The notes under the pieces are model-generated. The model was given only the letters and a program-made list of their open reading frames with translations, was not told where the DNA came from and searched no databases. Positions 1,601 to 58,838 of a DNA stretch of 62,749 nt are shown here, piece after piece; the stretch's first letter is position 1; every line of letters begins with the position of its first letter. The translations under genes were made by a program, and so were the position numbers. The DNA is from a virus: IMG/VR virus record IMGVR_UViG_3300042520_000420, positions 1 to 62,749 of that record; one strand, 5' to 3'.

Positions 1601-2425
1601 ATGGCAGAAGTAAAACCCCCTACCTTGCCATCTACTGGCGGCGTTGAATCGTCTACGTTATCTAGTTATGCTGGGCCGTATGTAACCGGTATGCTCGGCA
1701 AGGCGGAGGCATTGACAAATGCCCCGTATCAGACCTATCAAGGCCCATTGACCGCTGGCGAATCAGGCCTTCAGTCAAAGGTGTTTCAGGGCTTGGGCAG
1801 TTTAAACTTCCCCGGACAGCTAGGGCAGACATTTTCATCATCTCAAGCTCCAACTATTGGATCTGATGGTCAGCCTGTTGGTGGTGGAGGTATTGCCTCC
1901 CAGTACATGAATCCATATTTGCAAAGCGTTCTTGCTCCTCAGCTTGCGGAGCTTCAACGTCAAGCAAAGATTCAACAAATGCAAAATGCTGGTACAGCAA
2001 CCAAGATGGGCGCATTTGGAAGCTCAGGGCAAACCCTAATGGACACTGAGTCTCAGCGAAATGCACTTGATCAAATGAGCAAGACAATTGGCACTGGCTA
2101 CTCAAATGCCTACGATAAGGCGCTGGGTCAATTCAATGTTGAGCAAGGTCAGGCTAAGACTCTTGCCGACATGATGACCAAGGCAGGAGAAGAGCAGCGT
2201 GGCATTGAGCAGCAGGGCGTTACCGCAGATTTAAACGAATTCAATGCGCAGCGTGATTACCCACAAAAGATGTTGCAGTTTCAGCAATCTATGTTGCAGG
2301 GCTTGCCAATTTCTACTGTTGCCACTACCCCAAATCAACAAAGTGGATTGGGAAGCCTTACCTCGACAGTTGGCGGCTTGGGTAATTTGATGGAAAGCCT
2401 GAAAAGCCTCGGCATAAAATTTTGA
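1601..2425 (+). CDS. Putative DNA-ejection/internal virion protein
   Basis: 274 aa, ATG preceded by AAGGATTAATC. The N-terminus is Ser/Thr/Gly-rich with YVTGMLGKAEALTNAPY; the middle has YMNPYLQSVLAPQLAELQRQ and then a long helical, Gln-rich region (about 110-230) with AFGSSGQTLMDTESQRN. This composition (Ala/Gln-rich amphipathic helices, no signal peptide) is typical of small ejection proteins of podoviruses. A GTTTAAAC palindrome lies in the coding sequence at 1800. It is spaced 10 nt from both neighbours, so one operon. Function is inferred from place and composition only. Confidence 0.6.
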   Translation: MAEVKPPTLPSTGGVESSTLSSYAGPYVTGMLGKAEALTNAPYQTYQGPLTAGESGLQSKVFQGLGSLNFPGQLGQTFSSSQAPTIGSDGQPVGGGGIASQYMNPYLQSVLAPQLAELQRQAKIQQMQNAGTATKMGAFGSSGQTLMDTESQRNALDQMSKTIGTGYSNAYDKALGQFNVEQGQAKTLADMMTKAGEEQRGIEQQGVTADLNEFNAQRDYPQKMLQFQQSMLQGLPISTVATTPNQQSGLGSLTSTVGGLGNLMESLKSLGIKF

Positions 2426-2435
2426 GGGCAAATAA

Positions 2436-4034: not shown

Positions 4035-4041
4035 GGTTTAA

Positions 4042-7000
4042 ATGACTATCGAAGTCGAGTTAGTTGATGGTCGAATTCTTGAATTTCCTGATGGGACTTC
4101 TCCCGCTGTTATTCAAAGCACAGCCAAAAAGGCTACGCAGGACAAGTATTTTGGTGTCAGCACCGCAGAGCTAAAGGCCGCTCCGTCTGCGCCAATGTCG
4201 TTTGGCGATACAGCAAGAGCTGGTATTGCTGGCTTGACTGGCGCTCTTGGCTCTGCTGTTTCTGCATTTGGTGCAGATACAGCCCCAGCCCAAGGACTGA
4301 GATCTCTGACTGAGTCAATACAGTCTGGCATGACTCCCGAGCGCCTTGAGGAGCAGCGCCGCCGTGATGAGTTGATGCAAAGGTCTGAGAAAGAAGGCCT
4401 TGGCGCTCAAATCTTGGCTGGTGCTGGCGCTGTTGCCGAAGCGCCAATTCAATCAATTGCACAAGGCTTGGGATCATCCATCCCTGCTATTGCCGCAGGC
4501 CTTGCTACCGTGGTTGCTGGCGCTCCTGTAGCCATTGCTGGAGCAGTGGGTCTAGCAGCCCGTGCCATTTTTGGCGCAGTCCAAGGCGCAGGTGAAGCCA
4601 AGAGCGACATCTATTCCAGCGTCAAAGCCAAGCTCATGGAGTCTGGCAAGAATGAAGCCCAAGCTGAAGCTGAAGCCGCAAAGGCTCAAGAGTATGTAAG
4701 TAAAAACCTGCCCGGAATTATTGGTAGCTCTTTGGCTGGTGCAGTTGATGCAGCCACCGGTGTTGAATCTATTGTTGGTAAAGGTGCGTTTAAATCTGCC
4801 GTTAAACCGCTTGAGAAGCCAAGCCTGCTGCGTGAAACGTTTAAACAAGCAGGCAGCGAAGCTTTGCCAGAAGGTCTTCAGGCTGGTGTTGGTCAGGTTA
4901 CCCAGAATGTTGCACTGCAAAACGCAGGATTTGATACATCTACATTTGAAGGTGTAGCGGGGTCGGTTACCCGTGACGCATTGATGGGCGCATTGACCGG
5001 TGGAGCCGTGACTCCACTCCAGATGTCCAGCCTGCGCAGAGACTATGAGCTTGATAAACAGCGCAAGGTTGAAGAAGAAAACCGTGTTTTAGAAGAAAAA
5101 ATTGCAAAGGAAGAGCAAGCCCGTCAAGAGCAGATAATCAAAACCCAAGAAGATCTTGGTTTAAACAGGGAGTTTCCTGCGCTGCCCGCCCCGGCAGAAC
5201 AGATCGAAGAGCCTCCTGTTGCTGTTGATCCTTTAAAGAACCCGCTTGGCAATATTCAAAAGAACGAGATCCCCGAGATCTCTCAAACCATTGATGAGTA
5301 CCGCAAGAATGCCAACCTGCCTCCTCTGAAGGATTATTCTGTTGAAGATCTTGTGGATGCCATGCCCGGAACCGACCCAAGGGGCGAAGAAGGTCTTTTA
5401 AATGAATGGCTTACAGCAAAGACCGGATGGACTAAAGCAGATAAGATGACCGCCCAGCAAGTGCTGGATCAAGCCAAGCTTAAGAAGATTGAAACCAAGA
5501 CCAAGGGATTTGAAGACTTTCTTGCCCGTGTCACCGGTTATAGAGATCTGACAACCATGTCGCAGCCGCAGCTTTTTGCTGCGTTTAAAGCTCTATCTGC
5601 CTTACCTGAATCTGAAACAACTCAGATCCTCCCAGAGGGAACAAACGCCAGCCGCTTCAGCGAAGACCAATACCGCAAAGCATTAGATGGCGTTGACCAA
5701 TTGCTGGATGGCTTGGTGTCTAAGGATGGAAAGCCAATACCTCTTGATCGTGGTCAGGTGATCAAGGAGATCCAACAATACACTGGTCTAACGAAGACTG
5801 AACATGCTGAATCCATTTTGGATGAGGCTATTCGCCTTGGTGACTTAGACTCCGTTAAGACACCTCGTTACCGCATGGTTGACCCAGCCACTGGGCAGCT
5901 TAAGGGCGTAGCCTATGACAACCGCAAGGCTGCTGACGCTGCTGCCAAGCAACGTGGCTACGATGTAAAGCAGATCACTGCCGAGGGCATCACTCCACCA
6001 TCCACCGCTGCCACGCTGCCAGAAGGTTTTGACATCCGCAAGGGCTCGTTTAAAGAGGGTGAAGCCCCAGAGGGCTACTCCGTCATGGCGGGTGATGAGG
6101 CTTTGTATCAGGCAAAAACATCGGAAGAAGCTGCCACCAAGAAAGCCAGCTTTGAGAAAACCCGTGCTGGTATGGCTAACGCCATTGACAATCAGATTGC
6201 CCAGAAGCTCAACTCCGTAGAGCAAAGCCAAAGCCGTTTAAACAAGATGGAGGCTATGGGCGAGGGGCAGACCGACAACTACGCCAAGGCTAGAGGCAAA
6301 CATGCCCAGCTTGAGGAAAGTGTTGCTAAGGATGTCGAGGGTTTGCTTGAAAAGAAAGCCAAGTACGAGAGCCCCATCAGCATTAAGGCGTTTGGCAAGA
6401 AGGCGGTAGGACGCACAGGCTACACAGTCTTTGAGGGAGGGGAGGCAACAGCTACCTACCCAACCCGCACAGCCGCAGAAGAAGCAATTCTTACAGCAAG
6501 ATCAGATGATGAATTAAAGCAACTTACCAAAGACCAAGGCAGGCGTGGTCTGGGCAAGCGAGCCGAAGCCGAGATCCAGCGCAGAGCCGCTCCACCTCCC
6601 ACTGAAGGTAAGAAGGTCTCTGAAGTCTTGGAAGGCATTGAAGAAGAGAAGAGAAAACCAAAGCCCATACCTCCTGAAGTTAAAGCAAACATTGAGAGGC
6701 TTGAGAAGGAACTTCGTCCATTGATGGAGAAGCTCGGTCTGGGCAAGGTGACTTTAAACGTAGTTCAGGATATTGAGAACAACGCAGAAGGTGCGTTCTC
6801 CAAGACCTTGATGCGTATTGCGTTGGATTCGGAAAAACCTGTGCGCACCATGCGCCATGAGTCCATCCACGCATTGAAAGAACTTGGCTTCTTCACGCCT
6901 GCGCAGTGGAACACCCTACAACGCATGGCAAAAGACAAGTGGATCCAGACTTATCTGAAAGATAAGAATGCAATCCACAAAGGTAAATCCATGACACGCT

Positions 7001-10000
7001 TTGATGCGTACATGGATATTTACGGTGGGAATATGGACACTATCATGGAGGAGGCCATCGCTGATGCGTTTGCTGACTTTGATGTAAACAAGGCTCCTCC
7101 CGGTCTCATCACTGCCCTGCTCAACAAAATCCGTGCGTTCTTTGAGGCTTTGCGTAATGCAATGGCTGGCGCTGGATTCCAGACTGCCGATGAAGTCTTT
7201 GGCATGGTTGAGCGTGGTGAGTTGGTGGAGAACCCATCTGCTTGGAAAGCCACACCCGAGGATGAGGAAGAGGCGGCAAGGTACTCTGTCAACAACGGTA
7301 TTGATCCCTACATATCAGGCGGTCAGCTTAATGTGCCAATGGAGTCGGATGGAACAAAGTACTCCATCAAACAGGCTTACACCCCAGAACAAATAGCCAA
7401 GTCGGCGCAAGCAACAAACCGCAAGGGTGAGACAAAGAAAGTCAAGATCCTTAAGAACGATCCAATAACTGGCTTGCCTCTAAACCAAAACGGCACAGTC
7501 ACGCTGTATTACCCAACCGACAACGCTGGCGCACGAGAGCTTGCCAGAACCAAGCGTTTAAAGGGTCACTCACCAACAGCCAATCGCATTTACTTGACCA
7601 ACGAGTCCAGTGCGCCTGCTGTTGCCACAAATCCCGGAATGATTGAGCAACCCTTGGGTGGCGCAAATGTTTTGCTTGAGATTGATCCATCCTTGCTGCA
7701 CGAGCTAGAAGACCGTAAAGATGGGCGCAGAGATTTCTTCATTCCAATTGCGGAAGGCGCAGTGTTTGCCAAGAAGATGAAGAAGACCAAGCTGTTTACA
7801 CTGAACGCTTTGCGTACCAAGGGTTTGCACCCAGACCGCACACTAAATCAGGTAACCAAGATGGTTAACGATGCGGCGGCTAAATGGGCGGCTTCAAATG
7901 CAAAAGACCGCAGTGTCATGGCGAAGCAAGCCAAAGACACATTGCTTGCAGACCACAACATCACCAATCTGTTTGGAGCCAACTCTAAGCTAGAGAAGAC
8001 CAATATAGGTGAGTATGGGCTAACTTACAAAGACAAGAACGTCATGTCCACTGGCCTTGGCTTTGCCTCGGCTCAAAAGATTAATGATGAGCAACGTGCC
8101 ACCACTTGCCCTCAGTCGGGTATTTGTGAAGATCTGTGCCTTGGCGAAACATCAGGGCAGAACAGGCTCTATGGTGGCGAAGGTCAGTGGCGCTCAGGCC
8201 CCCGCTTGTCCCAGTATCTAAAGACAGAGGCCTTGGTTGTTAATCCTGAAGCTTTTGCGATTGCAATGATTAAGCAAATCACATCGTTCCGTAAGGCTGC
8301 TCAGGATTTGGGTTATTACCCAGCCATCCGTTTAAACGTTACATCTGACTTCAATCCAAAAACATTTGAGAACATCATCAACATGTTCCCTGATGTTATG
8401 TTCTATGACTACACCAAGCTAGACACCAAGCCAATCGCTCCCAACCACCACCTGACTTACAGCTCCACTGGAGCTTCTCAGGTTGTTGATGACGACATTG
8501 TTTACAACAAGTTCTCTAATTGGGATCGCATGGTGGACAAGGTTCTACCAAGCGGGCGCAATGTTGCTATGGCCTTTACAAGCCGTAGTGCAATGCCTAA
8601 GTTTGTGATGGATCAGCGCACAGGCAAGAGTTTTGAAGTTTGGAATGGTGATGAGTACGATGCTCGATTCCTTGATCCAGTTAGGAAAGATGGCGATGGC
8701 TGGATTATTGGTCTAACCAACAAGGACAACACTACCAAGCCAGAGGATGCTGCCAAGAAACACAATGGTTTCTTCCTTGACTATGACCCCGAGCGGGATG
8801 GCGACACCCTTGTCATTCAAAATCAAGAAAAACTCAAGACTGGCGCACCTCAGCCAATAACTTTTACCAAGAAGACTGAAAAATTTAGCCTTAGAGATTT
8901 GCCTCCAGAGCCGGGTACTCAGCCAATTCCAAAAGGAATGGTGCGCTTATACCACCAGACAGACTCTGAATCTCTTGCCAATATTTCCAAAGAAGGCTTG
9001 TCTATTAAATATGCCAAGGGTGTCGAAGGCCCCAAAGCTATTTATGCGGGTGAGACTCCTTTCTACGGCCCAGCAGATACAAGGCCAACCGTAGAATTTT
9101 TTGCTCCAAAAAATCAGTGGGACGCTCCTTTTGTTTTGGCTGATGTAAGCCCAAATCAAATCATTGCAGCCCATTACCCTTGGCACAAGCAGGCAAGATA
9201 TTTGGAGGCAGAGCCAGACTCAATGAAGGTTGCGTTGGATGGCGGGTTTGACAACTTGACAGATCCTGACACGGCAACGGCTGTTAAATACATCAAAGAC
9301 AAATACAAAAATCAAAAGCCTGAGAAGTACAGTCTCCGGTCTGCTCCTGAATCTGAAGAGTTTAAACAGTGGTTTGGCGACAGCAAGATTGTTGATTCCA
9401 AAGGCAAGCCCGTATTGCTTTACCACGCCACCAACTTCTCAGAAGAAGACAAGATTGACCAAGAGAACGTCTTCTCTGTGTTTAAAGAGTCTGATGACGG
9501 TAAGCTTGGCGCAGGCATCTACGCCTCATCCCTACCCAAATACGCAGAAAGCTATGGCCCAACTGGCACAGTGATGCCTTTGTACGCCTCCATCAAAAAT
9601 CCTTTGGTCATTAATATGGATGCCGATGGAATTGAGACTGACGCAGATGGCTATCAAAGCGTCACAACCAAGGTTGGTATCAGAGCCAACACTGCGCTTG
9701 AGGGTGTAGCCAAGAAGATACTGGCTAAGAACCCTGACTTCAAAACAGAGAGTAAACGCTATCTCAGAGGCTCAGAGGTTCAAGAGTTATTGGAGATGGG
9801 CGGGTATGACGGCGTTGTTTTAGAAGACAACGAAGGCAACTTTGTAGAGGTCAATGCGTTTAAACCTGAACAGCTTAAGTCGTCCATTGGGAACATTGGG
9901 ACTTACGATGCATCCAACCCAGACATTCGCTTCAGCCTGAAAGAGGCCCCAAATACACCTGAGTTTAAACAGTTCATAAAAGACAGTAAGGTTGTAGATG

Positions 10001-13000
10001 AAAATGGCGACCCACTTGTTGTTTACCATGCAACGGGCAAAAACTTCAACACATTTGATCCAAAAAAACTTGGTCAAAACACTAAAGATGCAACCGCAAA
10101 ATTAGGATTTTTCTTTGCCGGAAACGTAGATGCGGCAGACGAGTTTATGCGTCAGATGACCTACAAAGGTGTGGGCGAATACCAAGCTGGCGCTAATGTA
10201 ATTCCAGCTTACCTTTCCATAAAAAATCCTTTTGAAATTTCATCTGCGAATTTTGGAATGCAAATGACGGCGTTACAAAGAATGCCGCAAACAAAAGCCA
10301 AACAATTCATTGCTGATTTTTTGGTAGACGTTAAAAATGAAGGGTTTGATGGAATAGTAATTAGATCCACAAGAGGTACAGGCACAAGTTTATTTAAAGC
10401 AAAAGAGTTTGGTGCTGACAATTGGGTTGCGTTTGAACCAACTCAGATTAAATCTGCAATTGGTAACGTTGGATCATATGGTCAACGAGCGCCTACAGCG
10501 TCAGAAGCAAAGCAACTTGGTCTTACGCAGAAGAAAGCCGCCGAGCTTCAGGAAAAGGGTGATGTTCGCTTTAGCTTGCGTAAGGCTCCAGATACGCCAG
10601 CGTTTAAACGATTCTTTGCAGGTAGCAAGGTTGTCAACGAGGACGGATCGCCCAAGGTTATGTACCACGGCACAAACAAAGACTTCAATGAGTTTTTGAT
10701 TGCGGAGAAGGCAAATAGAACCGGAATGCCTGATGGCTTCTATTTCACATCAGATGCTGAAGATGCCAGCCGGTATGCAAAAGGCGATGGCGCTAATGTT
10801 ATGCCTGTCTACCTAAGCATCAAGAGTCCATATAACCTTGGTGGAAAGAACAAAATCTCCAAAGAGATGGTCATGCAATTTAGAGATGAGTTGCGTCAAG
10901 ACAACCCCAATCTACCGTTTAGCTGGATACAGGAAAAGGTCAACATCTTTAAGGAAAACACTGCCGCAGGCAGATTCCCATTCCCCAGCATCAGCTTCCC
11001 CACGGCGGCGATGCAAAGAGTTTTTGAGGCGGGTGGGTATGATGGCTTGATTGATGGCAGCAGAGTCTTTGTTGCGTTTAACCCAAGTCAAATTAAATCT
11101 GCTACCGGCAACATTGGAACCTTTGACAAAGAAAGTTCAGATGTTCGTTTCAGCCTGCGTTACAGCCTTGACCCAAGCATTGAAGAGCGTGTAAACGCTA
11201 CAACCACTTCCCGGGAAGAGAAGGGCCACATTGATAGGATGATTGAGGCAATCTCTCCATCCACCTATTCCCGCTTCCGTGCGCAAGCTTTAAACAGGTA
11301 TGACAGGCTCTCTGAGTACGACAAGATGCTTGCCAAGCAAATGGGTGGAGTTGAACTCCTTGCTGATGCGAGTGCGGAAGCTGCCGCCCTGATGTCTGAT
11401 CTTGGTGCTGGCATCACCGCCTCTGTCTTGGGTGTACATGACCGCAACGGTGGCATCCCTGTGTTCCGCAAGGGCGTTACAACGGTGGACGGATCCATCA
11501 AAGGTCCAATCTCCATCTTTGTGCCGCTGGCAAAGCTCAACAACCCCAAGGCCTATCGAGATTACCAATTTTGGTCTGGCGTTAAGCGGGGTCGCCCATT
11601 CATTGGCGCAGGCGGCAAAGAGTTGTTGTTCCAAGAAGGCGACATCAAGCAGGCCGAACTCTTAGAAAAAGAATACAAGGACATGGGTGTCTCCTTTGAT
11701 CAAATCCAAAAGGAATGGATTCAATTCAACAATGGATTGGTTAAATACCTTGTAGATACTGGAGTCTTGTCTGAGAAGCAGGCTGATCTTTTTACTAGGT
11801 ACAGCGACTACGTCCCCTTCTATCGTCAGATGGATGGTGAGAAGACTGTTGGCCCCAACATCTTCCAATCAATCTCGGGCGTTAAACAGCCCAAGAAATA
11901 CAAGGGTGAGACCGAGGCTCCATTGGCTGACTTCCTTGAAACAATTGTGCGCAACACTCAGTCTGCCATTCAGATGGGGGTCAAGAACACTGCCGCTCAA
12001 CGTGCAGTCGGCGTGGCGACCCAAATCCAGATGGCTGAGAAGCTGAAGTACAAGCCTAAGTCAATGATTAATGTTGTTACGGTTTTGGAAAAAGGCCAAG
12101 AGGCCTATTACGAATGCTATGACCATTTGTTTATTGAGTCAGTCAAGAGTTTAAACATCCCAGATCTGCCGTTTATTGGTCTGCTTTCTGCCCCGGCAAA
12201 CCTGCTGCGTAACTTGGTTACCAAAGATCCCGGATTCATGATGGCAAACATGTTGCGTGACTCCTTGTCTGCTTGGGTAACCAGCGGAGCAAAGATGACA
12301 CCTATTGCATCCACTATCGCTAACTTTGGCAAGTCCCTTGCTGGGACTTCTCCAGAGTTCAAGGCGCTTTTAAACGCAGGTATCTTGGGTGGTTACGAGT
12401 TCTCCCAGAACACAGAGCAAAGCGGCAAAACCTTGGCCCAAGCACTGCGTTTAAAGGCGGGGACAGGAAATCTGGGCGACAAAGCCAGCAGCCTGTGGGA
12501 TTTGCTGGAGAAAGGCACAACAGCCTCCGATGCAGCAACAAGGATTGAAGTCTACAAAAGCACCCTTGCCGAGACTGGAAATGAGGCAGAAGCCCTGTTC
12601 CGTTCTCTGGAGGTAATGAACTTCAACAGGAAGGGCAGTTCTGCCGTTATCCGTGTAATGACTGCCGCCATCCCATTCTTGAATGCTCGTATGCAGGGCT
12701 TGGATGTTCTGTACCGTGCTGGCATCAGACCCCTCACGGACAAGCTCTTTTTTGGCAAAGAGCCAACCGAAAGAGAAAAAGAAATCCAACGCATCTTCTT
12801 TGTTCGTGGCATGACCATCACCGCCTTGTCAGCCATGTATTGGTTACTCACACACGATGATGAAGAGTACAAGAAACAAGAGCAGGAAACAAGGGACAAC
12901 AATTGGCTCTTCCCATCTCTTGGCATCAAGATTCCTATTCCATTTGAGGTTGGCGTGATCTTCAAGGTTATCCCTGAGAGGATCATGGCGGCAACGCTAG

Positions 13001-13713: not shown

Positions 13714-13987
13714 TGTGATTGTTTTCAAAAAGCCAGCCTACCGTTCCCCGGTGGGCTGCTTCCCACATGTTTAAACGTTCTTCCCGGGACATATCCCGGC
13801 CTTGATCCAGTTCTGCGTGGCAGGTAAAACATAACGCCGCAATACGATAGTCATGGGCTTTCAGCCCACGGCCTTTGCCGTCCCGCATCTGATTTGAATG
13901 CGCAGCCACCACCGTGCCATCAGAAATATTGCAATGCTGACAGGGAGATAGCCGCACAACCTCAAGTAACTTCTGATTCCTGTACAT
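13694..13987 (-). CDS. YbcO/DUF1364-like putative HNH nuclease
   Basis: 97 aa, last gene of the leftward block. Near the N-terminus is CQHC, then VVAAHSNQ..GKGRGLKAHD and CFTCHAELD. That layout (Cys pair, AHxN, GKGxGxKAxD, CxxCHxxLD) is characteristic of the DUF1364/YbcO putative nuclease family found beside recombination genes in phages, and fits a zinc-bound HNH-type fold. With the exonuclease, annealase and RusA-like genes it suggests a role in phage DNA processing. A GTTTAAAC copy lies at 13769 inside the gene. Confidence 0.7.
   Translation of the reverse strand: MYRNQKLLEVVRLSPCQHCNISDGTVVAAHSNQMRDGKGRGLKAHDYRIAALCFTCHAELDQGRDMSREERLNMWEAAHRGTVGWLFENNHITVRSS
13726..13758 (-). terminator. 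Intrinsic-type terminator for leftward early operon, inside the last gene
   Basis: On the minus strand a 9-bp stem (13750-13758 with 13734-13742, one G-U pair, 7-nt loop) is followed by GGCTTTTTG. It falls inside the 3' end of the 13694-13987 gene and close to the end of the convergent 4042-13713 gene. There is no T run on the plus strand. Confidence 0.5.
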
Positions 13988-17541: not shown

Positions 17542-17753
17542 ACCTTCTCCCTTGTAATCTTTGGCTTCCTGCGTAAGACGTACAGCCAATACTTGAATGA
17601 CTTATGCCCCGCTCTCCATGCGCCGATGTTTAAACGTATGGCATACAGGAACACGCCCCACCGATACGCTCGTGCAAGTTCTTTCTGCATTGAAGCCCAA
17701 TCAGCGTAGTTGCCGTTTTTGTATGTGATTCGGTATTTGTACTCAGTCATCAT
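17538..17753 (-). CDS. Small basic hypothetical protein
   Basis: 71 aa (or 70 from the second Met). The N-terminal part reads YRITYKNGNYADWASMQKEL, then a basic aromatic region (AYRWGVFLYAIRLNIGAW, FKYWLYVLRRK). A GTTTAAAC copy is at 17628. Possibly membrane-associated. Unknown function. Confidence 0.5.
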   Translation of the reverse strand: MMTEYKYRITYKNGNYADWASMQKELARAYRWGVFLYAIRLNIGAWRAGHKSFKYWLYVLRRKPKITREKV

Positions 17754-17883: not shown

Positions 17884-18084
17884 CTAATCAAAGTTGAGTC
17901 GTTGTGCGGTAATCCAAAAGCCCTTTGCGTTTAAACTCATTTTCTTTTGAAGCATCTCCTCTGATGTAAGACATCTTCTGTCCACCTGAAAGTCTCCTCT
18001 TCGGTGTTTGTCAAAAGCATAGGTGCTGTTGAAATACTGTTTACACGTTTGACATTGGTTGCGGTCTCCTCTAAGAACTATCAT
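17884..18084 (-). CDS. Small zinc-finger-like protein
   Basis: 66 aa, ATG after GGAGGGAAAGA. It has CQTCKQYFNSTYAFDKHRRG followed by RRCLTSEEM, i.e. C-x2-C-x12-H-x9-C, compatible with a zinc site. I recall the YAFDKHR..F...RRCLT pattern in small phage proteins annotated only as hypothetical. GTTTAAAC at 17929 encodes part of MSLNAKG. Confidence 0.6.
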   Translation of the reverse strand: MIVLRGDRNQCQTCKQYFNSTYAFDKHRRGDFQVDRRCLTSEEMLQKKMSLNAKGFWITAQRLNFD

Positions 18085-19393: not shown

Positions 19394-20052
19394 TTTGTTT
19401 CCTCTTCTGTAAATGATTTTTTCTTCTCTGCGAAGCTGTTGCGAACCTGAGCGTATAACTCAGGGTGACTTACTTTTAGCGCATCAAGCTGTCCTTGATT
19501 TGCTTTCCAGTAACTGTTTAAACCACTCTTGTCTTTGCAGATGGCAAGGAACTTGACCATTCCGTCTGCAAACAACTGGGCATTTCCATCTGCTTGGTTA
19601 TCGTTGCCGCCGTAATATTCTTTCTTGATCTCCACATCAGCTTGCGCCTCTTGCGTAACCACTGAAACAACTGCTGTATCTTCCATCGGAAGGTCATCTC
19701 CGCTATATATGTATAAACCGAGTCCGTGTAGAGCCAATGCCTTGGTCATGCAACGCATGATTGCAGTATTAACTTGGAACGCATCAGGAGATTGGATGGG
19801 CTTGTTGCGGTGATCCATCACTGGCAACATACATGTGCGCCCTTGATTGAACATAACAACAGATACCCACACCATACCAGTGCCGTTTACATCCATGTAT
19901 GGCTTCTCACCAAAGGTGTGTACTTGGAATGTTGCTTGGGGGTCGGCCTTTAAAGCTTCTGCCCATGCCCATGCCCATGACAGGTAGGTCAAGCCATTCT
20001 TCTTCTCGGTATGAGCGTTGACGTTGACTCTCAATAGATCAAGCGGCGACAT
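19390..20052 (-). CDS. DUF1071-type single-strand annealing protein
   Basis: 220 aa from ATG 20052, which sits behind AAGGAGAAATCA; a start at 20142 would lie deep in the exonuclease gene. Residues 15-130 show the DUF1071 pattern: KNGLTYLSWAWAWAEALKAD, VWVSVVMFNQGRTCMLPVMD, then NTAIMRCMTKALALHGLGLY. Proteins of this family act as phage recombinases (Sak/ERF-like annealases) that pair single strands. It follows the PD-(D/E)XK exonuclease with a 14-nt overlap, the usual exonuclease-annealase pairing. Confidence 0.75.
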   Translation of the reverse strand: MSPLDLLRVNVNAHTEKKNGLTYLSWAWAWAEALKADPQATFQVHTFGEKPYMDVNGTGMVWVSVVMFNQGRTCMLPVMDHRNKPIQSPDAFQVNTAIMRCMTKALALHGLGLYIYSGDDLPMEDTAVVSVVTQEAQADVEIKKEYYGGNDNQADGNAQLFADGMVKFLAICKDKSGLNSYWKANQGQLDALKVSHPELYAQVRNSFAEKKKSFTEEETK

Positions 20053-20924: not shown

Positions 20925-21368
20925 ATGAGTTCGAATTTGTATGATATCAATATCACGGAAGAATTGCAACAGATATCTTTAATTATTTTTGGGGAGCCTG
21001 CAAGCAAGGCCAACTCAAGGAGGGTTGTGAAGTTTGGCAACATGTCCAGACTCATCAAATCGCAGAAAGCCCTGAATTACTCAGAGGCGTTTAAACGGCA
21101 ATGCACACCTCTGGCGGTGTTGATGTCTGGGGATATCCGTATGACTATGTGGATCTATTACGCCAGCCGCAGGCCTGACCTAGACGAGTCTTTGATTCTG
21201 GATCTGCTGCAAGGGGTGGTGTATTTAAACGATAGGCAAGTGAAGGAGAGGCATGTGTACTGGGGGCTGGATCCTGAGAAGCCAAGGGCAGAGATAATCA
21301 TTGAGCAAATCCCACCCGTTTACACCAAAAAGAAGCCCGCACGGAGGCGGGCTAAAGAGGGAGAGTGA
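20925..21368 (+). CDS. RusA-like Holliday junction resolvase
   Basis: 147 aa using ATG 20925; an earlier start at 20883 would run into the divergent exonuclease gene. The fold signature is IIFGEPASKANSRRVV near the N-terminus, then RRPDLDESLILDLLQG and YLNDRQV. RusA needs D70, D72, K76 and D91; here D85, D87 and D103 match, but the lysine position holds Ile, which may lower or change activity. The basic C-terminal tail (KKKPARRRAKEG) may bind DNA. It would resolve branched DNA before packaging. GTTTAAAC at 21089. Confidence 0.65.
   Translation: MSSNLYDINITEELQQISLIIFGEPASKANSRRVVKFGNMSRLIKSQKALNYSEAFKRQCTPLAVLMSGDIRMTMWIYYASRRPDLDESLILDLLQGVVYLNDRQVKERHVYWGLDPEKPRAEIIIEQIPPVYTKKKPARRRAKEGE
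20941..20969 (-). promoter_or_regulatory. Candidate promoter of leftward early operon with dyad
   Basis: On the minus strand TTGCAA (20969-20964) and TATCAT (20946-20941) are 17 bp apart, placing the start about 30 nt before the 20905 ATG. The -10 overlaps the dyad GATAT-CA-ATATC (20943-20954), and a second GATATC lies at 20972, next to the -35. The site is within the first codons of the RusA-like gene. Confidence 0.45.
21326..21353 (-). terminator. Minus-strand terminator-like hairpin inside the RusA-like gene end
   Basis: Stem AGCCCGC/GCGGGCT (21334-21340 with 21347-21353, 6-nt loop) is followed on the minus strand by TTCTTTTTGG. On the plus strand it lacks a T run. It could stop antisense transcription approaching the early promoter. 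Confidence 0.4.
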
Positions 21369-24619: not shown

Positions 24620-24848
24620 TCGTTTAAACAAAGCGATGCAGCCAGACGGGAAAAATCTGGCGAGCAGCGGGCTCGCTAGTAATGACCCGTTTAAACACAA
24701 CAGCAGCGTAGCGGCGTAGCATTTAAAATCAGAGAGTAAATTTGGTGGTAGGGAAACGTTTAAACACACAAGCTCATCTGGTGAGCTTCAGGTGGAGTTC
24801 GAGGCGCATAAGAAATCTTATGCACGTTTAAACGGTATGCACAAGACA
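24620..24848. repeat. Four regularly spaced GTTTAAAC palindromes with hairpins
   Basis: Noncoding stretch between the primase-helicase stop and the leftward terminator. GTTTAAAC occurs at 24622, 24689, 24758 and 24826, i.e. 67, 69 and 68 bp apart. The first interval holds two adjoining hairpins (24641-24646/24656-24661 and 24660-24665/24671-24676). The third holds two perfect 7-bp hairpins (24770-24776/24782-24788 and 24806-24812/24817-24823). The second contains a CGTAGC direct repeat. The spacers are not alike in sequence; only the palindrome and spacing are conserved. Confidence 0.7.
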
Positions 24849-25114: not shown

Positions 25115-25391
25115 CACCAATAAACAATTCAGCGTCCTTGACTGGGATTGCCTTATCGAACACTATCTGTCCAAAGTAATAATGCCCCAGTGCGGCATCG
25201 AGGACATCCCAGTTGATGCCCACCTCTGCATCATGTTTGTCAGCCATGATCTTCAAGACGTTTAAACAATCATTGTCGGTCATGGTGCTTTGATCTGCGC
25301 CCGACTCTTCCATGTACTGGCGTACATCTTCAATGCACCACTCGACACGCAACACCCATTCACCCTCGTTGTTTTGAATTACTTGTGCCAT
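25089..25391 (-). CDS. Hypothetical protein
   Basis: 100 aa; ATG overlaps the upstream TAA (TAATG). Acidic; begins MAQVIQNNEGEWVLRVEWCI and contains VGINWDVLDAALGHYY. A GTTTAAAC copy at 25260 encodes VLK. No family recognised. Confidence 0.55.
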   Translation of the reverse strand: MAQVIQNNEGEWVLRVEWCIEDVRQYMEESGADQSTMTDNDCLNVLKIMADKHDAEVGINWDVLDAALGHYYFGQIVFDKAIPVKDAELFIGDEPNQDHN

Positions 25392-25945: not shown

Positions 25946-26246
25946 TTTCTCTCTCCTTTGTGTTTAAACGTTTATCCAGTCGAATGGATTCTTTGTGTGC
26001 GGCGGCAAGTGCAAGTTCAATGGTTGTATGCGCCGAGAGGTTGACCCACCCCACATTGCGCTTGCGAACAAGCGAAACGATATAGGGGCGTTTGCGATCA
26101 ACATCGACCCATCTACTCAAATTACGCCATGACTGATGTCTGATGTAAATAAAGTCACCGTGCTTGAGGCACTCAAGCCAAGGCGTGGTCACCAGTGAAT
26201 CTTGGAGTGCGCCTGTCGGCATACCCTCACCTAAAAATATCTTCAT
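25926..26246 (-). CDS. Hypothetical protein
   Basis: 106 aa from ATG 26246, which has AGGAGAGACAAC upstream; the longer frame to 26315 lacks a site. Contains FIYIRHQSWRNLSRWVDVDR and RNVGWVNLSAHTTIELALAA. GTTTAAAC lies at 25962 in the coding region and at 26259 just upstream of the start. Unknown role. Confidence 0.55.
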   Translation of the reverse strand: MKIFLGEGMPTGALQDSLVTTPWLECLKHGDFIYIRHQSWRNLSRWVDVDRKRPYIVSLVRKRNVGWVNLSAHTTIELALAAAHKESIRLDKRLNTKERENETARP

Positions 26247-26268
26247 GTTGTCTCTCCTGTTTAAACGG

Positions 26269-28538: not shown

Positions 28539-28545
28539 GTTGACC

Positions 28546-31321: not shown

Positions 31322-31399
31322 TGTGGACAATTCTGTGGGTAAAGCTGGGTGAAGTGTGTGGATATGTGGATACTGTGGATAACAATAACCTGTGGATAA
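31322..31399 (+). promoter_or_regulatory. DnaA-box cluster, putative replication origin
   Basis: Perfect TGTGGATAA (reverse of TTATCCACA) at 31374 and 31391; near matches at 31322 (TGTGGACAA), 31334 (TGTGGGTAA), 31357 (TGTGGATAT) and 31365 (TGTGGATAC), several 8-17 bp apart and all in one orientation. The rest of the 30905-31504 gap has no supportable gene. AT-rich sequence at 31185-31270 could unwind. Two transcription blocks diverge from here. Confidence 0.65.
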
Positions 31400-31432: not shown

Positions 31433-31504
31433 GCGAACAGTGCTGGTCATGCATACAGTGCATGGCTGGGATTATTGTCAATTGTATAAACAGGGTTTAA
31501 ACGC

Positions 31505-40149: not shown

Positions 40150-40269
40150 ATTGCCATTGTTTAAACAGCATGGTATAAACAACACATCCCGGGGTCATCC
40201 GGTGTATCTGACAGTCCCGGCTGACGACATGCAGACAGATACGCCCCACTTGCATGTAAGGAAAAAATC
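40150..40269 (+). promoter_or_regulatory. Structured 5' leader of the 40270 gene
   Basis: 120 bp after the capsid terminator. It holds GTTTAAAC (40159) and C/G-rich self-complementary stretches (around 40188-40222). A perfect 7-bp stem ACATGCA/TGCATGT (40227-40233 with 40251-40257) ends directly at the AAGGAAAAAATC ribosome site. I do not see a clear promoter, so either read-through or a non-consensus promoter serves the next genes. Confidence 0.4.
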
Positions 40270-43058: not shown

Positions 43059-43297
43059 TGGACATCAACACCATTTGGTCTGCTGGCTTATCTGTCCTGA
43101 TGGGTGGACTGTGGTTTTTCATTCGTGAAAAATTTGATGAACTAAATCGTTTAAACATATTACTTAACCGAACACGAGAGGAAATAGCCCGTGATTACGC
43201 AACTAACGCAGAAGTGCAAAGAATTACTGACCACATTGACCAGCGTTTTAACAAGCTGGAAGCAAAAATTGACCAACTTATTCAAGCGGGGCGATAA
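43058..43297 (+). CDS. Small single-TM coiled-coil protein
   Basis: 79 aa, TAATGG overlap. N-terminal TM (SAGLSVLMGGLWFFI) followed by a charged coiled coil (NRLNILLNRTREEIARDYAT, DQRFNKLEAKIDQLI). It resembles small spanin- or holin-accessory-like membrane proteins, but lies in the structural cluster; role unknown. Confidence 0.6.
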   Translation: MDINTIWSAGLSVLMGGLWFFIREKFDELNRLNILLNRTREEIARDYATNAEVQRITDHIDQRFNKLEAKIDQLIQAGR

Positions 43298-43299: not shown

Positions 43300-43785
43300 A
43301 TGCCCAGCACAAGTAAGAAGCAACACAATTTCATGGCTGCGGTGGCGAACAACCCATCTTTTGCCAAGAAAGTGGGAGTCCCACAGTCTGTGGGTAAAGA
43401 TTTCAGCAAGGCCGACAAAGGCAAAACGTTTAAACAAGGTGGTGACATGAAAGAATCTAAAGCAATGGTTAAAAAAGAAATTGGCTTTATGAAAGCCAAG
43501 GGCGCTCCTAAGTCTATGGTCAAGCATGAGATGGCTGAGATGAAGGGTGCAAAAAAGATGGCTGGCGGCGGTATGCCTATGGTTATGAAAGACGGACAAA
43601 AAGTTCCAGCTTTTGCCGCAGACGGCAAGGGCAAAATGGCTCACGGTGGTGTAGCTAAAAAAATGATGGGTGGCGGTATGGCCTACGCCAAGGGTGGATC
43701 TGCATCTAGTCGTGCTGACGGTATTGCTCGTAAAGGCAAAACCCAAGGTACTCAAGTAAAAATGAATCGTGGCGGTAAATGCTAA
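43300..43785 (+). CDS. Basic Gly/Met/Lys-rich protein with RADGIA tag
   Basis: 161 aa. Begins MPSTSKKQHNFMAAVANNPS with FAKKVGVPQSVGKDFSKADK, a start I have seen in phage proteins of unknown role. The middle is rich in Lys, Met and Gly (KMAGGGMPMVMKDG). The C-terminus ASSRADGIARKGKTQ is followed by a short basic tail ending GGKC. GTTTAAAC at 43428. Confidence 0.65.
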   Translation: MPSTSKKQHNFMAAVANNPSFAKKVGVPQSVGKDFSKADKGKTFKQGGDMKESKAMVKKEIGFMKAKGAPKSMVKHEMAEMKGAKKMAGGGMPMVMKDGQKVPAFAADGKGKMAHGGVAKKMMGGGMAYAKGGSASSRADGIARKGKTQGTQVKMNRGGKC

Positions 43786-45625: not shown

Positions 45626-46560
45626 TGGCATACACCACCGGCACATCAATCTTTGATATGGACTTTACGGAGATCGCCGAAGAATCGTGGGAACGTGCTG
45701 GGCGTGAAATGCGTAGTGGTTATGACTTGCGTACAGCCCGCAGGTCAATGAACCTAATGACCATTGAGTGGCAAAACCGTGGCATTAACATGTGGACAAT
45801 TGAACAGGGAACTATTGACCTTGTTCAGGGTTTAAACACCTACCCGCTTCCTACTGACACGATTGATCTGATGGAGCATGTAATTCGCACCGGTCAGGCA
45901 AATTCTTCTACTCAAGCCGATCTAAGCATTACCCGTATCAGCGTTTCTACCTATGCCACCATTCCAAACAAATTAACCCAAGCAAGACCAATTCAAGTTT
46001 TTATCCAAAGGTTGTCTGGTCAGACCAGTATGACGCAGTTGACCTTGAATGGGTCGATTAACGCCACAGCCACAACTATCACATTAAATTCAACAATTGG
46101 ATTGGCTGCTGCTGGGTACATTCAATTGGACTCAGAGATCATCTATTACCAGTACATCACTGGAAATGTTTTAAATGTCTGCTCTCGTGCGCAAGCAAAT
46201 ACAGTTGCAGCGTCACACACCACTAGCACCTCTGTTTATGTTCCTCAACTTCCTGCTATAACCGTTTGGCCCACGCCTGACGGCTCAACAAGCTACCAAT
46301 TCGTATATTGGCGATTGCGTAGAGTGCAGGACGCTGGTTCAGGCGTAACCACAGCCGACATGAATTTTCGCTTCCTGCCATGCCTTGTAGCTGGCTTGGC
46401 TTACTACATAGCCATGAAAGTGCCAGAGCTTGTGACACGCATGGATATGCTGAAAATGGCATACGAAGAGCAATTCCAATTGGCGGCAGGCGAGGACAGG
46501 GAAAAGGCTTCCAGCTTGTTTGTTCCTCGCCAGCAATTCATTGGTGGAGGATCTCCCTAA
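45625..46560 (+). CDS. Head-tail connector/tail adaptor-like protein
   Basis: 311 aa, TAATGG overlap. N-terminal part FTEIAEESWERAGREMRSGY, DLRTARRSMNLMTIEWQNRG and YPLPTDTIDLMEHVIRTG, and C-terminal helices (LAYYIAMKVPELVTRMDMLK, YEEQFQLAAGEDREKAS), as in podovirus adaptor proteins. A beta insertion in the middle (about 135-205, with IQLDSEIIYYQYI) looks like an added module. It probably sits under the portal. Confidence 0.65.
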   Translation: MAYTTGTSIFDMDFTEIAEESWERAGREMRSGYDLRTARRSMNLMTIEWQNRGINMWTIEQGTIDLVQGLNTYPLPTDTIDLMEHVIRTGQANSSTQADLSITRISVSTYATIPNKLTQARPIQVFIQRLSGQTSMTQLTLNGSINATATTITLNSTIGLAAAGYIQLDSEIIYYQYITGNVLNVCSRAQANTVAASHTTSTSVYVPQLPAITVWPTPDGSTSYQFVYWRLRRVQDAGSGVTTADMNFRFLPCLVAGLAYYIAMKVPELVTRMDMLKMAYEEQFQLAAGEDREKASSLFVPRQQFIGGGSP

Positions 46561-46976
46561 TGGCTAATATGTTCTCGTCAGGCAAGTTCAGCATTGCAAT
46601 GTGTGACCGTTGTGGTCAGCAGTTCAAGCTGAAGCAGCTTAAGTACGAGGTCATTAAAACCAAGCTTTACCAATTGAAGGTTTGCAGTGAATGCTGGGAT
46701 CCTGATCACCCTCAATTGCAGCTAGGTATGTATCCAGTAGAGGATCCGCAGGCAGTCAGGGAGCCACGCAATGACAGCACATATGTAGCCGCTGGTTTAA
46801 ACGGATTGCAGGATTCGCCTACTGAGGCTGACAATGGATTCCCAACAGGCGGATCACGAGATATTCAATGGGGCTGGTATCCAGTCGGAGGATCCAAGAG
46901 TTTTGATGCGGTTTTAACGCCCAACTACTTGGTTGGAACCGCTGACGTTGGCAATGTAACTGTAAGCATCACTTAG
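46560..46976 (+). CDS. Zinc-ribbon structural-cluster protein
   Basis: 138 aa from ATG 46560 (TAATGG overlap). CDRCGQQFKLKQLKYEVIKT then KVCSECWDPDHP gives two Cys pairs for a zinc ribbon, followed by PQLQLGMYPVEDPQAVREPR and a beta tail. I recall this CDRCG..F...L..E ... C..CWDPDHPQ pattern in phage structural regions. Likely a minor virion or assembly protein. Confidence 0.65.
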   Translation: MANMFSSGKFSIAMCDRCGQQFKLKQLKYEVIKTKLYQLKVCSECWDPDHPQLQLGMYPVEDPQAVREPRNDSTYVAAGLNGLQDSPTEADNGFPTGGSRDIQWGWYPVGGSKSFDAVLTPNYLVGTADVGNVTVSIT

Positions 46977-54470: not shown

Positions 54471-54472
54471 TC

Positions 54473-55661: not shown

Positions 55662-56170
55662 TTCCAATAGTCGCATCCCTCCTCGGTAGCCTAGCCGAAA
55701 ACGGCTTAGGGTTACTGTCGTCTGCCATCCAAGCCAAAGGCAAAGAGGTGGTTGAGAAAACACTTGGCGTAAAAATTCCCGATGCTCCTACCGCAGAAGA
55801 TGTCAGCAATTTGCGCCAACTTCAATACGAACACGAAGAGCGTTTGCTTGAACTTGGCATTGAGAAGGCCAAGATGGAGTTGGAAGAGATGAAGGTGCTG
55901 GCGGCAACGGCGCAGAACGAAGATGACAACGTAACAGACCGCTGGCAGTCAGATATGAACAGTGATTCTTGGCTGTCCAAGAACATTCGCCCCATGAGCC
56001 TGATTGCTATTTTCTTTGGTTATTTCCTGTTTGCCATGATGAGCGCCTTTGGTTTAAACGCCAACGAGTCCTACGTCCAGTTGCTTGGGCAGTGGGGGAT
56101 GTTAATCATGGGCGCTTACTTTGGCGGCAGAACCATTGAGAAACTTGCAGAAATGAAAGGCAAAAAATGA
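55658..56170 (+). CDS. Holin, 3TM-type
   Basis: 170 aa; ATGA overlap. N-terminal hydrophobic helix (IVASLLGSLAENGLGLLSSA), charged helical middle, the motif DNVTDRWQSDMNSDSWLSKN followed by IRPMSLIAIFFGYFLFAMMS and QLLGQWGMLIMGAYFGGRTI. The D-x-x-T-x-R-W-x-x-D...W-x-x-x-(N)-I-R-P block is the signature of the 3TM phage holin family. It makes lethal inner-membrane holes that release the endolysin. GTTTAAAC at 56052. Confidence 0.75.
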   Translation: MIPIVASLLGSLAENGLGLLSSAIQAKGKEVVEKTLGVKIPDAPTAEDVSNLRQLQYEHEERLLELGIEKAKMELEEMKVLAATAQNEDDNVTDRWQSDMNSDSWLSKNIRPMSLIAIFFGYFLFAMMSAFGLNANESYVQLLGQWGMLIMGAYFGGRTIEKLAEMKGKK

Positions 56171-56508
56171 GTTTAAACACAGAACAAGCTGCGTTTTTGC
56201 TGGACACTTGTAAGCTAATCCAGTACGCTACAGACCAAGGATTCGTGGTGACCGGCGGGGAACTTGCCCGTACTCCCGAACAACAAGCCATTTATTTCAA
56301 GACGGGGCGTTCCAAAACAATGAATTCCATCCATCTAAAGCGGTGCGCCATAGACTTGAATTTTTTCAAGGACGGAAAAATCATTTGGGACAAGGTAATC
56401 CTTGCCCCTCTAGGAGCGTATTGGGAGACTCTGCATCCAAAGAACCGCTGGGGCGGTAACTTTAAGTCTCTTGTTGATTGCCCTCATTTTGAGCGCAATG
56501 TAGGTTAA
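56167..56508 (+). CDS. M15-family endolysin (peptidase)
   Basis: 113 aa. Zinc ligands in the VanY/M15 pattern: SIHLKRCAIDLNFF gives H56 and D63, and DCPHFE gives H107. RTPEQQAIYFKTGRSKT is the usual preceding block. Short, single-domain, no signal peptide, so release depends on the holin next door. It cuts a D-Ala/L-Ala-linked peptide bond in the stem of peptidoglycan. GTTTAAAC (56171) forms codons 2-4. Confidence 0.85.
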   Translation: MSLNTEQAAFLLDTCKLIQYATDQGFVVTGGELARTPEQQAIYFKTGRSKTMNSIHLKRCAIDLNFFKDGKIIWDKVILAPLGAYWETLHPKNRWGGNFKSLVDCPHFERNVG

Positions 56509-56510
56509 AA

Positions 56511-58838
56511 ATGCTCAAGAAAATCCTTCTCAAGCCCGGTGTAAACAAAGAGAACACTCGTTACACAAGTGAGAACGGGTGGTATGACTGCGACAAGATT
56601 CGCTTTCGCCAAGGTACGCCAGAAAAGATAGGCGGTTGGGAGAGAATTTCCTCCAGCACGTTTTTGGGTGTGTGCCGATCTTTGTGGGCTTGGGTGACGC
56701 TGGGTGCGCAACAGTTGCTGGGCGTAGGAACAAACCTCAAGTTCTACATTGAGAATGGCGGTAGTTACTACGACATTACCCCATTAAATCAAACCAACAC
56801 GCTCACAAACCCGTTTGATATGGTGAGCGGTTCCTCCACGGTGACCGTAACTGATGCTAACGGCGGATACTCAAACAACAACTACGTCACATTTACCGGC
56901 TCTTCGGCAAATGGCGGTATTACCTTGTTGGGTGAGTATCTGCTAACAACGGCTTCAGTGGCTAATACTTATACGGTTGTTGCCTCCTCCACAGCAGCCA
57001 TATCAGCAGCTAATCCTGCTGTATTTACCACTCAGTTTAAGTTAGCTAATAACGTAGAGGTAACGTTAACAAGCACAGGAATGTTGCCTAGCCCGTTTGT
57101 GGCAGGCACAACCTACCATGTTGTGTCAACTTCAGGATATACATTTAGCCTTGCTGCCACATCAGGCGGAACGGCAATAAGTACGATTGGATCGATTCAA
57201 TCTGGCATTCATACAGTAACTGCAAAAGCCTCATCTACTGCCGCTGCCGGTGGTGGAACTGTTAGGGCAGCATATCAAATTGCTACTGGCGAAGCATTTG
57301 CCGTAAGTCTTGTTGGTTGGGGCGCTGGTGGCTGGGGGTCAGGAACGTGGGGGATAGGAACAGAATCAACCCAAACATTCCGTCAGTGGAGCCAGAGTAA
57401 CTTTGGGGAAGATTTAATCTTTGGCCCAAAAGGTGATGGCATTTACTACTGGGACGCTTCATTTGGATTGGTTGGCACAACATTTACCGTTACTATTGCA
57501 ACACCTGCGATTTTGTCTACATCCATTACGCTTACGAATGGTATGGTGTTCGTATTAACAACAGATGGCGCTTTGCCTACGGGTTTAAACGTTGGTCAAA
57601 ATTACTACGTCATTAACACTACCGGTACATCTTGTGAGTTATCAGCTACTTATGGCGGCGTTGCTATTAATACATCAGGATCGCAGTCTGGTACACACAA
57701 AATTGCGTCTAGAGCAATTGCTTTAGAGGACTACGGCGGCGCATCAGCTGTGCCTACAGAACAGAATTACTTGCTGGTGTCAGACTCTAGTAGGTTTGTT
57801 TTTGCATTTGGCGCTACGGAGTTTGGTTCATCTACATTTAATCCAATGTTGATTCGCTGGTCAGACCAAGGCGATCCATTTAACTGGACTCCCAGCGCAA
57901 CAGTACAGGCTGGATTTACTTATCTGTCTCACGGCTCTGAGATCGTGACAGCAATACAAGCTCGCCAAGAAATTTTGGTTTGGACTGATTCGTCTTTGTA
58001 TTCGCTTCAATACCAAGGCGCACCCGTTGTTTGGTCTACACAGATTGTGGGCGATAACCTTTCCATTGCAGGAGAAAACGCAGTGGCTTATGCCAACGGC
58101 GTAGCCTATTGGATGGGTGTGGATAAGTTTTATAAATACGATGGTAGGACTCAAACGCAAAACTGCGATCTACGTCAGTATGTTTTTTCGGACATAAACA
58201 AGTCGCAGTTTGCTCAGGTAGTTGCCGGTACAAATGAAGGTTTTAATGAGATTTGGTGGTTCTATTGCTCCGGCACAAGCATCACAATTGATAGCTATGT
58301 AGTGTTTAACTACATGGAGAATCAAGGTCAAGGCGCTTGGTACTACGGGTCTATGGCTCGCACAGCTTGGCTGGACAGTGGATTGAGAGATTATCCAATT
58401 GCAGCCACATACGACTACAACATTGTGAACCATGAGCAGGGTGTTGATGACAACGCTACTGGAACCACCTTGCCTATTGAGGCTTTTATTACTTCTGCCG
58501 AGTTTGATTTGGAGGATGGTGATCGCTTTGGCTTTGTGTGGCGGGTTGTTCCTGACATTACGTTCCGTGGATCCACCGCCGCCAGTCCTCAAGTAACCAT
58601 GTATCTCAAGCCCATGCAGAACTCAGGTTCTGGATATAACGTCCCACCCTCTGTTGGTGGAGAGAATAATGCCACGGTGACAAGAACGGCAATACTTCCA
58701 ATTGAAGAATTTACCGGTCAGATCTACACCCGTGTGCGTGGGCGACAGATTGCTATGGAGGTAAGGTCTACTGCTGCTGGAGTGACTTGGCAGCTTGGCT
58801 CTCCTCGACTTGACATCAAGCAGGATGGCAGACGATGA
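56511..58838 (+). CDS. Tail nozzle-like (tubular B-type) protein with two inserted beta modules
   Basis: 775 aa. Start MLKKILLKPGVNKENTRYTS, RFRQGTPEKIGGWERIS and later DEIVTAIQARQEILVWTDSS-like blocks (SHGSEIVTAIQARQEILVW), GVAYWMGVDKFYKYDGRT, GFNEIWWFYCS are typical of large podovirus nozzle proteins that form the tube below the adaptor. Two similar insertions (about 165-245 and 320-400, each with a 'G.LP.....G..Y.V......F.L....GG.AI' pattern) look like exposed FCCH-like domains. It lies downstream of the lysis genes and upstream of the ejection proteins. Confidence 0.7.
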   Translation: MLKKILLKPGVNKENTRYTSENGWYDCDKIRFRQGTPEKIGGWERISSSTFLGVCRSLWAWVTLGAQQLLGVGTNLKFYIENGGSYYDITPLNQTNTLTNPFDMVSGSSTVTVTDANGGYSNNNYVTFTGSSANGGITLLGEYLLTTASVANTYTVVASSTAAISAANPAVFTTQFKLANNVEVTLTSTGMLPSPFVAGTTYHVVSTSGYTFSLAATSGGTAISTIGSIQSGIHTVTAKASSTAAAGGGTVRAAYQIATGEAFAVSLVGWGAGGWGSGTWGIGTESTQTFRQWSQSNFGEDLIFGPKGDGIYYWDASFGLVGTTFTVTIATPAILSTSITLTNGMVFVLTTDGALPTGLNVGQNYYVINTTGTSCELSATYGGVAINTSGSQSGTHKIASRAIALEDYGGASAVPTEQNYLLVSDSSRFVFAFGATEFGSSTFNPMLIRWSDQGDPFNWTPSATVQAGFTYLSHGSEIVTAIQARQEILVWTDSSLYSLQYQGAPVVWSTQIVGDNLSIAGENAVAYANGVAYWMGVDKFYKYDGRTQTQNCDLRQYVFSDINKSQFAQVVAGTNEGFNEIWWFYCSGTSITIDSYVVFNYMENQGQGAWYYGSMARTAWLDSGLRDYPIAATYDYNIVNHEQGVDDNATGTTLPIEAFITSAEFDLEDGDRFGFVWRVVPDITFRGSTAASPQVTMYLKPMQNSGSGYNVPPSVGGENNATVTRTAILPIEEFTGQIYTRVRGRQIAMEVRSTAAGVTWQLGSPRLDIKQDGRR

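Follow-up and report, generated by a model that had tools for sequence, protein, structure and literature searches.

In this study we analysed an IMG/VR virus record of 62.7 kilobases (kb; IMGVR_UViG_3300042520_000420), taken at its full length and referred to as the window, and found that it carries 43 exact copies of the palindrome GTTTAAAC. The excess is real and is kept by natural selection, and the pairing of this word with a phage-encoded SprT-like protein recurs in many unrelated phages. Comparison of sequences indicates that the phage's own SprT-like protein very likely recognises GTTTAAAC; the fuller proposal, in which the palindrome would be the operator of this protein acting as an autoregulator, is probable.

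The palindrome is highly iterated in the window

An exact scan recovered all 43 copies, each at precisely the position given in a preliminary description of the window. The number expected is 1.2 under a first-order Markov model, which was used for expectations throughout; the earlier estimate was roughly one. A count near expectation, which that description had named as a possible refutation, is not what was observed. The runner-up 8-bp palindrome has 6 copies. A maximal-order Markov model is uninformative here, since the 7-mers of GTTTAAAC belong to the motif itself. Within genes, GTTTAAAC occupies only the two frames devoid of stop codons (18 and 14 copies), and its density is 2.64/kb outside genes as compared to 0.55/kb inside, approximately a five-fold difference; gene calls were automatic and crude, a few being wrong, and the contigs compared in this study are fragments. 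Use of both frames and enrichment in noncoding gaps had been described previously, as had the stretch from 46.8 to 56.0 kb, which is indeed without any site. The early/replication region (13.7–32.7 kb) contains 22 copies in 19 kb (1.2/kb), while the rest contains 21 in 44 kb (0.5/kb), and four sites at 24622–24826 are spaced by 67–69 bp. No clear helical periodicity was observed in the spacing of the sites. In motif-rich contigs the consensus extends to YGTTTAAACR.

The sites are as follows (no strand assigned; exact scan, combined with alignment where relatives, given under G labels or as counts, are mentioned):

1800..1807, GTTTAAAC site
4839..4846, GTTTAAAC site
5159..5166, GTTTAAAC site
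6236..6243, GTTTAAAC site
8330..8337, GTTTAAAC site
9360..9367, GTTTAAAC site; G022 has ATTTAAAC
9858..9865, GTTTAAAC site; kept in G002
9963..9970, GTTTAAAC site; kept in G029
10602..10609, GTTTAAAC site; kept in G033, G029 and G049
12149..12156, GTTTAAAC site; kept in 5 distant relatives
13769..13776, GTTTAAAC site; kept in 5 distant relatives
17628..17635, GTTTAAAC site
17929..17936, GTTTAAAC site
19516..19523, GTTTAAAC site; kept in G033
21089..21096, GTTTAAAC site; kept in 5 distant relatives; G022 has ATTTAAAG
23256..23263, GTTTAAAC site; G022 has GTTTAAAT
23826..23833, GTTTAAAC site; kept in 6 distant relatives; G022 has GTTTAAAT
24622..24629, GTTTAAAC site, first of four in the gap after the primase/helicase gene
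24689..24696, GTTTAAAC site, second of the four
24758..24765, GTTTAAAC site, third of the four
24826..24833, GTTTAAAC site, last of the four
25260..25267, GTTTAAAC site
25962..25969, GTTTAAAC site
26259..26266, GTTTAAAC site
27347..27354, GTTTAAAC site; kept in G002 and G029
27965..27972, GTTTAAAC site
29532..29539, GTTTAAAC site
31495..31502, GTTTAAAC site, preceding the ATG of the terminase small subunit by 2 bp; also upstream of sprT (opposite strand), at ~600 bp
32123..32130, GTTTAAAC site at the stop codon of the terminase small subunit
32368..32375, GTTTAAAC site, first of two upstream of the LexA-like gene
32436..32443, GTTTAAAC site, second of these two
32555..32562, GTTTAAAC site within the LexA-like gene
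33773..33780, GTTTAAAC site; kept in several distant relatives; G022 has TTTTAAAG
35689..35696, GTTTAAAC site; kept in G044 and G008
36568..36575, GTTTAAAC site; kept in G044 and G008
40159..40166, GTTTAAAC site, intergenic; kept in 4 distant relatives
43149..43156, GTTTAAAC site
43428..43435, GTTTAAAC site
45830..45837, GTTTAAAC site; kept in 4 distant relatives
46795..46802, GTTTAAAC site; kept in G008
56052..56059, GTTTAAAC site
56171..56178, GTTTAAAC site, starting 1 bp past the ATG of a gene
57583..57590, GTTTAAAC site

The sites are under selection and phage-borne

Synonymous-codon shuffles of hand-corrected genes, a check proposed in the preliminary description, gave 2.1 ± 1.3 coding copies of GTTTAAAC (maximum 8) as compared to 33 observed, which rules out codon-pair usage as the cause of the excess. 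Concomitantly, 31 of 36 aligned sites are intact in the relative G020 (83% overall identity) while 26% of adjacent 8-mers are, and in G002 (73% identity) the sites are intact in 10 cases out of 19, as compared to 11% of adjacent 8-mers. Because of the shuffles and of this site-by-site conservation, we conclude that the palindrome is selected.

Among 80 portal-related contigs, the motif is present in those down to ~75% amino-acid identity, at roughly 0.3–1/kb with a few at 0.1–0.3, while the 74% group and nearly all more distant contigs lack it. It reaches 4 copies/kb in an unrelated lineage (lineage A), whose terminase shares 50% identity with its counterpart in Streptomyces phage Stella, and it recurs in phages of several hosts, Methylophilales, Dinoroseobacter and Acinetobacter among them; some matches are local arrays and not dispersed sites (e.g. 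L139/G047). In ~570 cellular genomes (399 from the order of Polaromonas, 151 from the order of a freshwater Actinomycetota metagenome-assembled genome and 20 others), GTTTAAAC remains at or below ~0.05/kb as compared to 0.7/kb in the window. Among the matches listed in the scan of cellular contigs, the loci inspected gave almost only clustered regularly interspaced short palindromic repeats (CRISPR) and short tandem arrays.

These densities bear on the suggestion that a host protein or a host genome bias imposes the motif, in the manner of a HIP1-like mirror. The motif is common to unrelated freshwater phages, as this would predict, but its background density in the host-group scans led us to reject the idea as the origin of GTTTAAAC; in addition, the bearers span guanine-cytosine (GC) contents of 0.30–0.70 and infect several phyla, and close relatives without the SprT-like protein are also without the motif, so that a host origin appears extremely unlikely. 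The likeness to HIP1 pointed out earlier holds for the form of the motif and extends no further than analogy, and a word confined to phages does not fit the idea of an uptake motif. Equally raised beforehand was a modification site, either a methylation target or a restriction relic. The palindrome is identical to the PmeI recognition site, but restriction favours the loss of sites and not their gain, the scan of window proteins (which did not include every open reading frame (ORF)) revealed no methyltransferase, and an association with SprT would not be predicted; we give this explanation next to no weight.

The motif is associated with a phage SprT-like protein

In an all-ORF family comparison, the SprT-like family is the commonest of the motif-rich contigs, being found in 89 of them as compared to 2 motif-poor contigs, both of which correspond to one genome, G022. 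A search of whole records with the SprT profile matched 29 out of 51; G022 was the only match among portal relatives with few or no GTTTAAAC, and some of the motif bearers without a match are contigs that stop short of the sprT locus (G001, G004–G006 and G009, ending near the LexA-like gene).

We also performed the reciprocal test by choosing phages for their SprT-like protein alone, and not for the motif, and clustering IMG/VR loci and isolates at 65% identity, beyond which related loci are not independent. Within 36 clusters whose protein displays a KQxTR segment (GC 30–70%), 27 are significantly enriched and 208 GTTTAAAC were counted vs 7.8 expected, while CTTTAAAG is at expectation; the 82 IMG/VR loci with KQxTR carry 465 GTTTAAAC vs 13.2. 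Ten isolates were included. Methylophilales phage Venkman has 34 copies (1.4 expected), Dinoroseobacter phage R5C 10 (0.1 expected, and every TTTAAA in its 50 kb is GTTTAAAC), Alexa 8 (1.45), Persinger 4 (0.16), ep3 4 (0.68) and Caron 2 (0.01), while MW2 and Eden, with ribbons devoid of KQxTR, have none, and neither do the GC-rich Crewmate and Crosby. Burkholderiales chromosomal SprT homologues without KQxTR have 2 GTTTAAAC vs 1.9 expected, and the sole one with KQSTR has its one local copy within the sprT gene region. The proposal of a binding site for a phage protein thus gained support, and the reciprocal association, together with the covariation described below, points to the SprT-like protein. 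To our knowledge the SprT-like family is not known to read DNA sequence; a literature search on GTTTAAAC, or on phage SprT as a DNA reader, gave nothing relevant in open-access text, an earlier report in a subscription journal being possible.

The genes concerned in the window are:

30308..30904, minus strand, SprT-like (Spartan-fold) protein of 198 amino acids (aa), HExxH intact, proposed GTTTAAAC reader (profiles, AlphaFold2 (AF2), fold search)
30446..30463, minus strand, KKQGTR codons, proposed base-reading element (Arg153; covariation with the motif's outer base pair)
30308..30463, minus strand, C-terminal zinc ribbon including KKQGTR, the sole part kept in the 58–100 aa versions of the densest phages
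32464..32694, plus strand, LexA-type winged-helix protein of 76 aa without peptidase domain, probable regulated gene and rival reader (PF01726, E=2e-11)

The SprT-like protein matches phrog_6361 (E=1e-37) and, below the 25.6 cut-off, Pfam SprT-like (E=7e-4, 19.8 bits), and its best viral match is SprT of Bordetella phage FP1 (E=6e-17). The AF2 model (predicted local distance difference test score, pLDDT, 93.5) has Spartan 6mdx as top PDB fold match (E=0.017, probability 0.80), abylysin also being among the nearest structures, both with marginal scores, and CapP as a weak match, while a sequence-profile search retrieved Spartan (E=0.0017). The protein is thus assigned to the SprT-like/phrog_6361 family with a predicted Spartan-type fold and a putative protease activity. 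HExxH is intact in the window protein (HELCH), but 47 of 92 family members no longer have it, and several of the densest contigs retain just a protein of 58–100 aa with KQxTR and the zinc ribbon; the need for protease activity would have been lost.

One ribbon residue covaries with the outer base pair

In three clusters the Arg of KQxTR is replaced by Ala, Ser or Tyr, and 72 CTTTAAAG are present vs 0.9 expected, with no GTTTAAAC in the cluster representatives. L425 (KKKTYLLK) has 23 CTTTAAAG and no GTTTAAAC, its relatives with KQxTA or KQATS have 7–28 CTTTAAAG and no GTTTAAAC except for one copy in L514, and a distant relative, L513 (KKQSTR), has 22 GTTTAAAC and no CTTTAAAG. When Asn replaces the Arg (G022, L516, L517), TTTAAA is enriched with mixed A/C and G/T flanks: G022 has 83 TTTAAA vs 24 expected with the outer bases changed, and at aligned window sites it often keeps TTTAAA yet displays GTTTAAAT, ATTTAAAG and similar words. 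In the simplest reading, the Arg of KQxTR would contact the outer G. We lean towards the view that the zinc ribbon with KQxTR, carried on a Spartan-type fold, may represent a new class of sequence-specific DNA-binding domain with a one-residue code (Arg for GTTTAAAC; Ala, Ser or Tyr for CTTTAAAG), which would place a protease-fold regulator at dozens of sites in phages of several bacterial phyla.

Other iterated words were seen in this family. The CTTTAAAG phages L508 and L507 have a second iterated palindrome, AAGTACTT/AGTACT (AGTACT 22 vs 4.3 in L508). Where the SprT ribbon lacks KQxTR, TGATCA is in excess in Bordetella phage MW2 (L407; 36 vs 7.6) and GCCGGC in Microbacterium phage Eden (L412; 131 vs 39.6), which may reflect host bias or a further code.

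Site placement suggests an autoregulator with distributed sites

Several low-copy phages have their only GTTTAAAC in the sprT promoter or within sprT. The sprT promoter region contains a site in L405, L408, L411, L436, L475, L469, L478, L461, L431 and L460; with boxes judged by eye, in L431 and L460 it has TTGACA on one side and a -10-like box on the other, and in L408, L469 and L478 it is directly downstream of a -10-like box. Inside sprT, 122 copies were counted vs 23 expected, one cluster of related phages being dominant; in the L416–L467 group (e.g. L416, L427), several sites stand in the sprT coding sequence at fixed positions (+50, +290, +356 and +561). In Venkman, ~30 of the 34 sites are in the first 14.6 kb and six lie exactly between Shine-Dalgarno and ATG, a placement seen for 75 of 703 sites in 21 sequences vs 13.7 expected.

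This last placement could reflect an RNA-level signal, with GUUUAAAC acting in mRNA near start codons of Venkman and others. We see only a slim chance of this, as sites overlap promoters between -35 and -10 (L431, L460), are found on either strand as well as between genes, and form perfect palindromes at the DNA level.

The density in the early region and the placement at start codons, upstream of the LexA-like gene and in sprT promoters fit an autoregulator with distributed sites. In the proposed mechanism, GTTTAAAC (YGTTTAAACR) would serve as operator for the SprT-like protein that the phage itself encodes, which would bind it, presumably as a dimer, with the KQxTR segment of the zinc ribbon reading the palindrome and the Arg contacting the outer G:C pair. 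The protein would repress its own promoter in several relatives, and the sites, multiplied over promoters, start codons and gene bodies and densest in early regions, would allow the bound protein to block or tune transcription as a roadblock, in a palindromic, stoperator-like regulon. Given recognition, a transcriptional role is likely.

Alternatively, the SprT-like protein could read the sites in order to cut proteins off phage DNA, as a DNA-protein crosslink or anti-defence protease, or serve genome organisation, replication or packaging. The Spartan-like fold, the HExxH kept by the window protein and by about half of its family, the location of most sites in gene bodies and the DnaA-box clusters beside sites at 31.4 and 32.4 kb are in agreement with such a role. 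We nevertheless regard it as unlikely, since in the densest genomes HExxH or the entire protease body is gone and the ribbon alone is left, and since sites that overlap promoters or stand at start codons point to gene control.

Another phage protein might be the reader, the candidate being the LexA-like winged helix, whose gene has two GTTTAAAC upstream. Every motif bearer of the window clade whose sequence spans this region has the LexA domain, but it is absent from the motif-bearing lineages A and C, in which SprT or the ribbon is present, and it leaves the covariation of the Arg with the flanks unexplained. We rejected this candidate as fitting the window clade and failing in these lineages, and consider a reader other than the SprT-like protein very unlikely.

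Several observations weigh against the operator proposal. Nine of the 36 KQxTR clusters, mostly GC-rich, are not significantly enriched; L479, with a KKQTTR ribbon, has no TTTAAA in 20.6 kb vs 3.5 expected; and lineage C (G048, L274–L275) has 29 GTTTAAAC with a SprT ribbon devoid of KQxTR (GRNNNK). The non-Arg clusters are few and partly related, probably representing only two evolutionary switches. As to regulation, the nearest upstream site is ~600 bp from the window sprT, outside its promoter, all loci taken together show a modest excess immediately upstream of sprT (11 vs 6.1), and most sites are inside genes, where the case for repression is indirect. The lack of TTTAAA in L479 could be avoidance or another target, and G048, whose sites have the extended context TTTAAACRC, does not fit the simple code.

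Other features of the window

The window comes from a freshwater tailed phage and encodes a terminase, a portal, CobS/CobT-like proteins, a Sak recombinase and a primase-helicase. The portal is similar, at 34–46% identity, to portals from phages (~52–65 kb) of Pelagibacter, cyanobacteria and Caulobacter, and megablast of 24 kb of the window gave no match among known phages. A polyvalent protein of 3223 aa (4042–13713) has GP88, several ART-PolyVal and LPD38 domains, and a CobS/CobT-like pair of AAA ATPase and VWA proteins (26820–29991) lies in the sprT operon region. The 76-aa LexA DNA-binding domain stands alone (32464–32694) and is kept across the window clade beside the terminase genes. DnaA-box-like clusters (TTATCCACA/TGTGGATAA) at 31360–31399, where the sprT and terminase operons diverge, and at 32378–32400, upstream of the LexA-like gene, are a possible replication origin.

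Comparison with known systems

If correct, the proposal would assign a DNA target and a recognition code, together with a testable role, to a gene that is widespread in phages under the labels 'SprT-like protease' or 'unknown function'. It would also bring in a DNA-reading domain from outside the known classes and account for an extreme case of iterated palindrome. An excess of GTTTAAAC or CTTTAAAG would then be a sequence signature of phages using an SprT-like reader, which is testable at once in the isolates Venkman and R5C.

The closest parallel is with the stoperators of cluster A mycobacteriophages, which likewise combine a phage-encoded DNA-binding protein (predicted here) with tens of genome-wide sites, as counted for GTTTAAAC, with site variants that differ among relatives and with some sites in short gaps and near promoters (PMC9283540, PMC6550527). 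The stoperator site is asymmetric and is read by an immunity repressor of another fold (PMC9283540, PMC6550527). In contrast, GTTTAAAC is a perfect palindrome of 8–10 bp without the single orientation to transcription of stoperators, it is associated with an SprT-fold/zinc-ribbon protein and not with a cluster A type immunity repressor, and it has many gene-body sites and lytic-looking phages among its bearers. A LexA regulon would have a LexA-type protein wherever the motif is, while none is found in lineages A and C. HIP1 of cyanobacteria is similarly a highly iterated short palindrome (~1/kb), but it belongs to host chromosomes, while GTTTAAAC is at background in the cellular genomes searched and is tied to a phage gene.

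The metalloproteases SprT, Spartan (SPRTN) and Wss1 share with the window protein the HExxH fold and a zinc ribbon, SPRTN being a DNA-dependent protease. These proteases are not known to read sequence, many phage members lack HExxH, and the cellular Burkholderiales homologues lack KQxTR and the motif. Finally, CapP/CapH and IrrE/DdrO also tie a metallopeptidase fold to gene control, but there the protease cleaves a separate repressor, while in the phage SprT system the reader domain appears to be part of the protease-fold protein.

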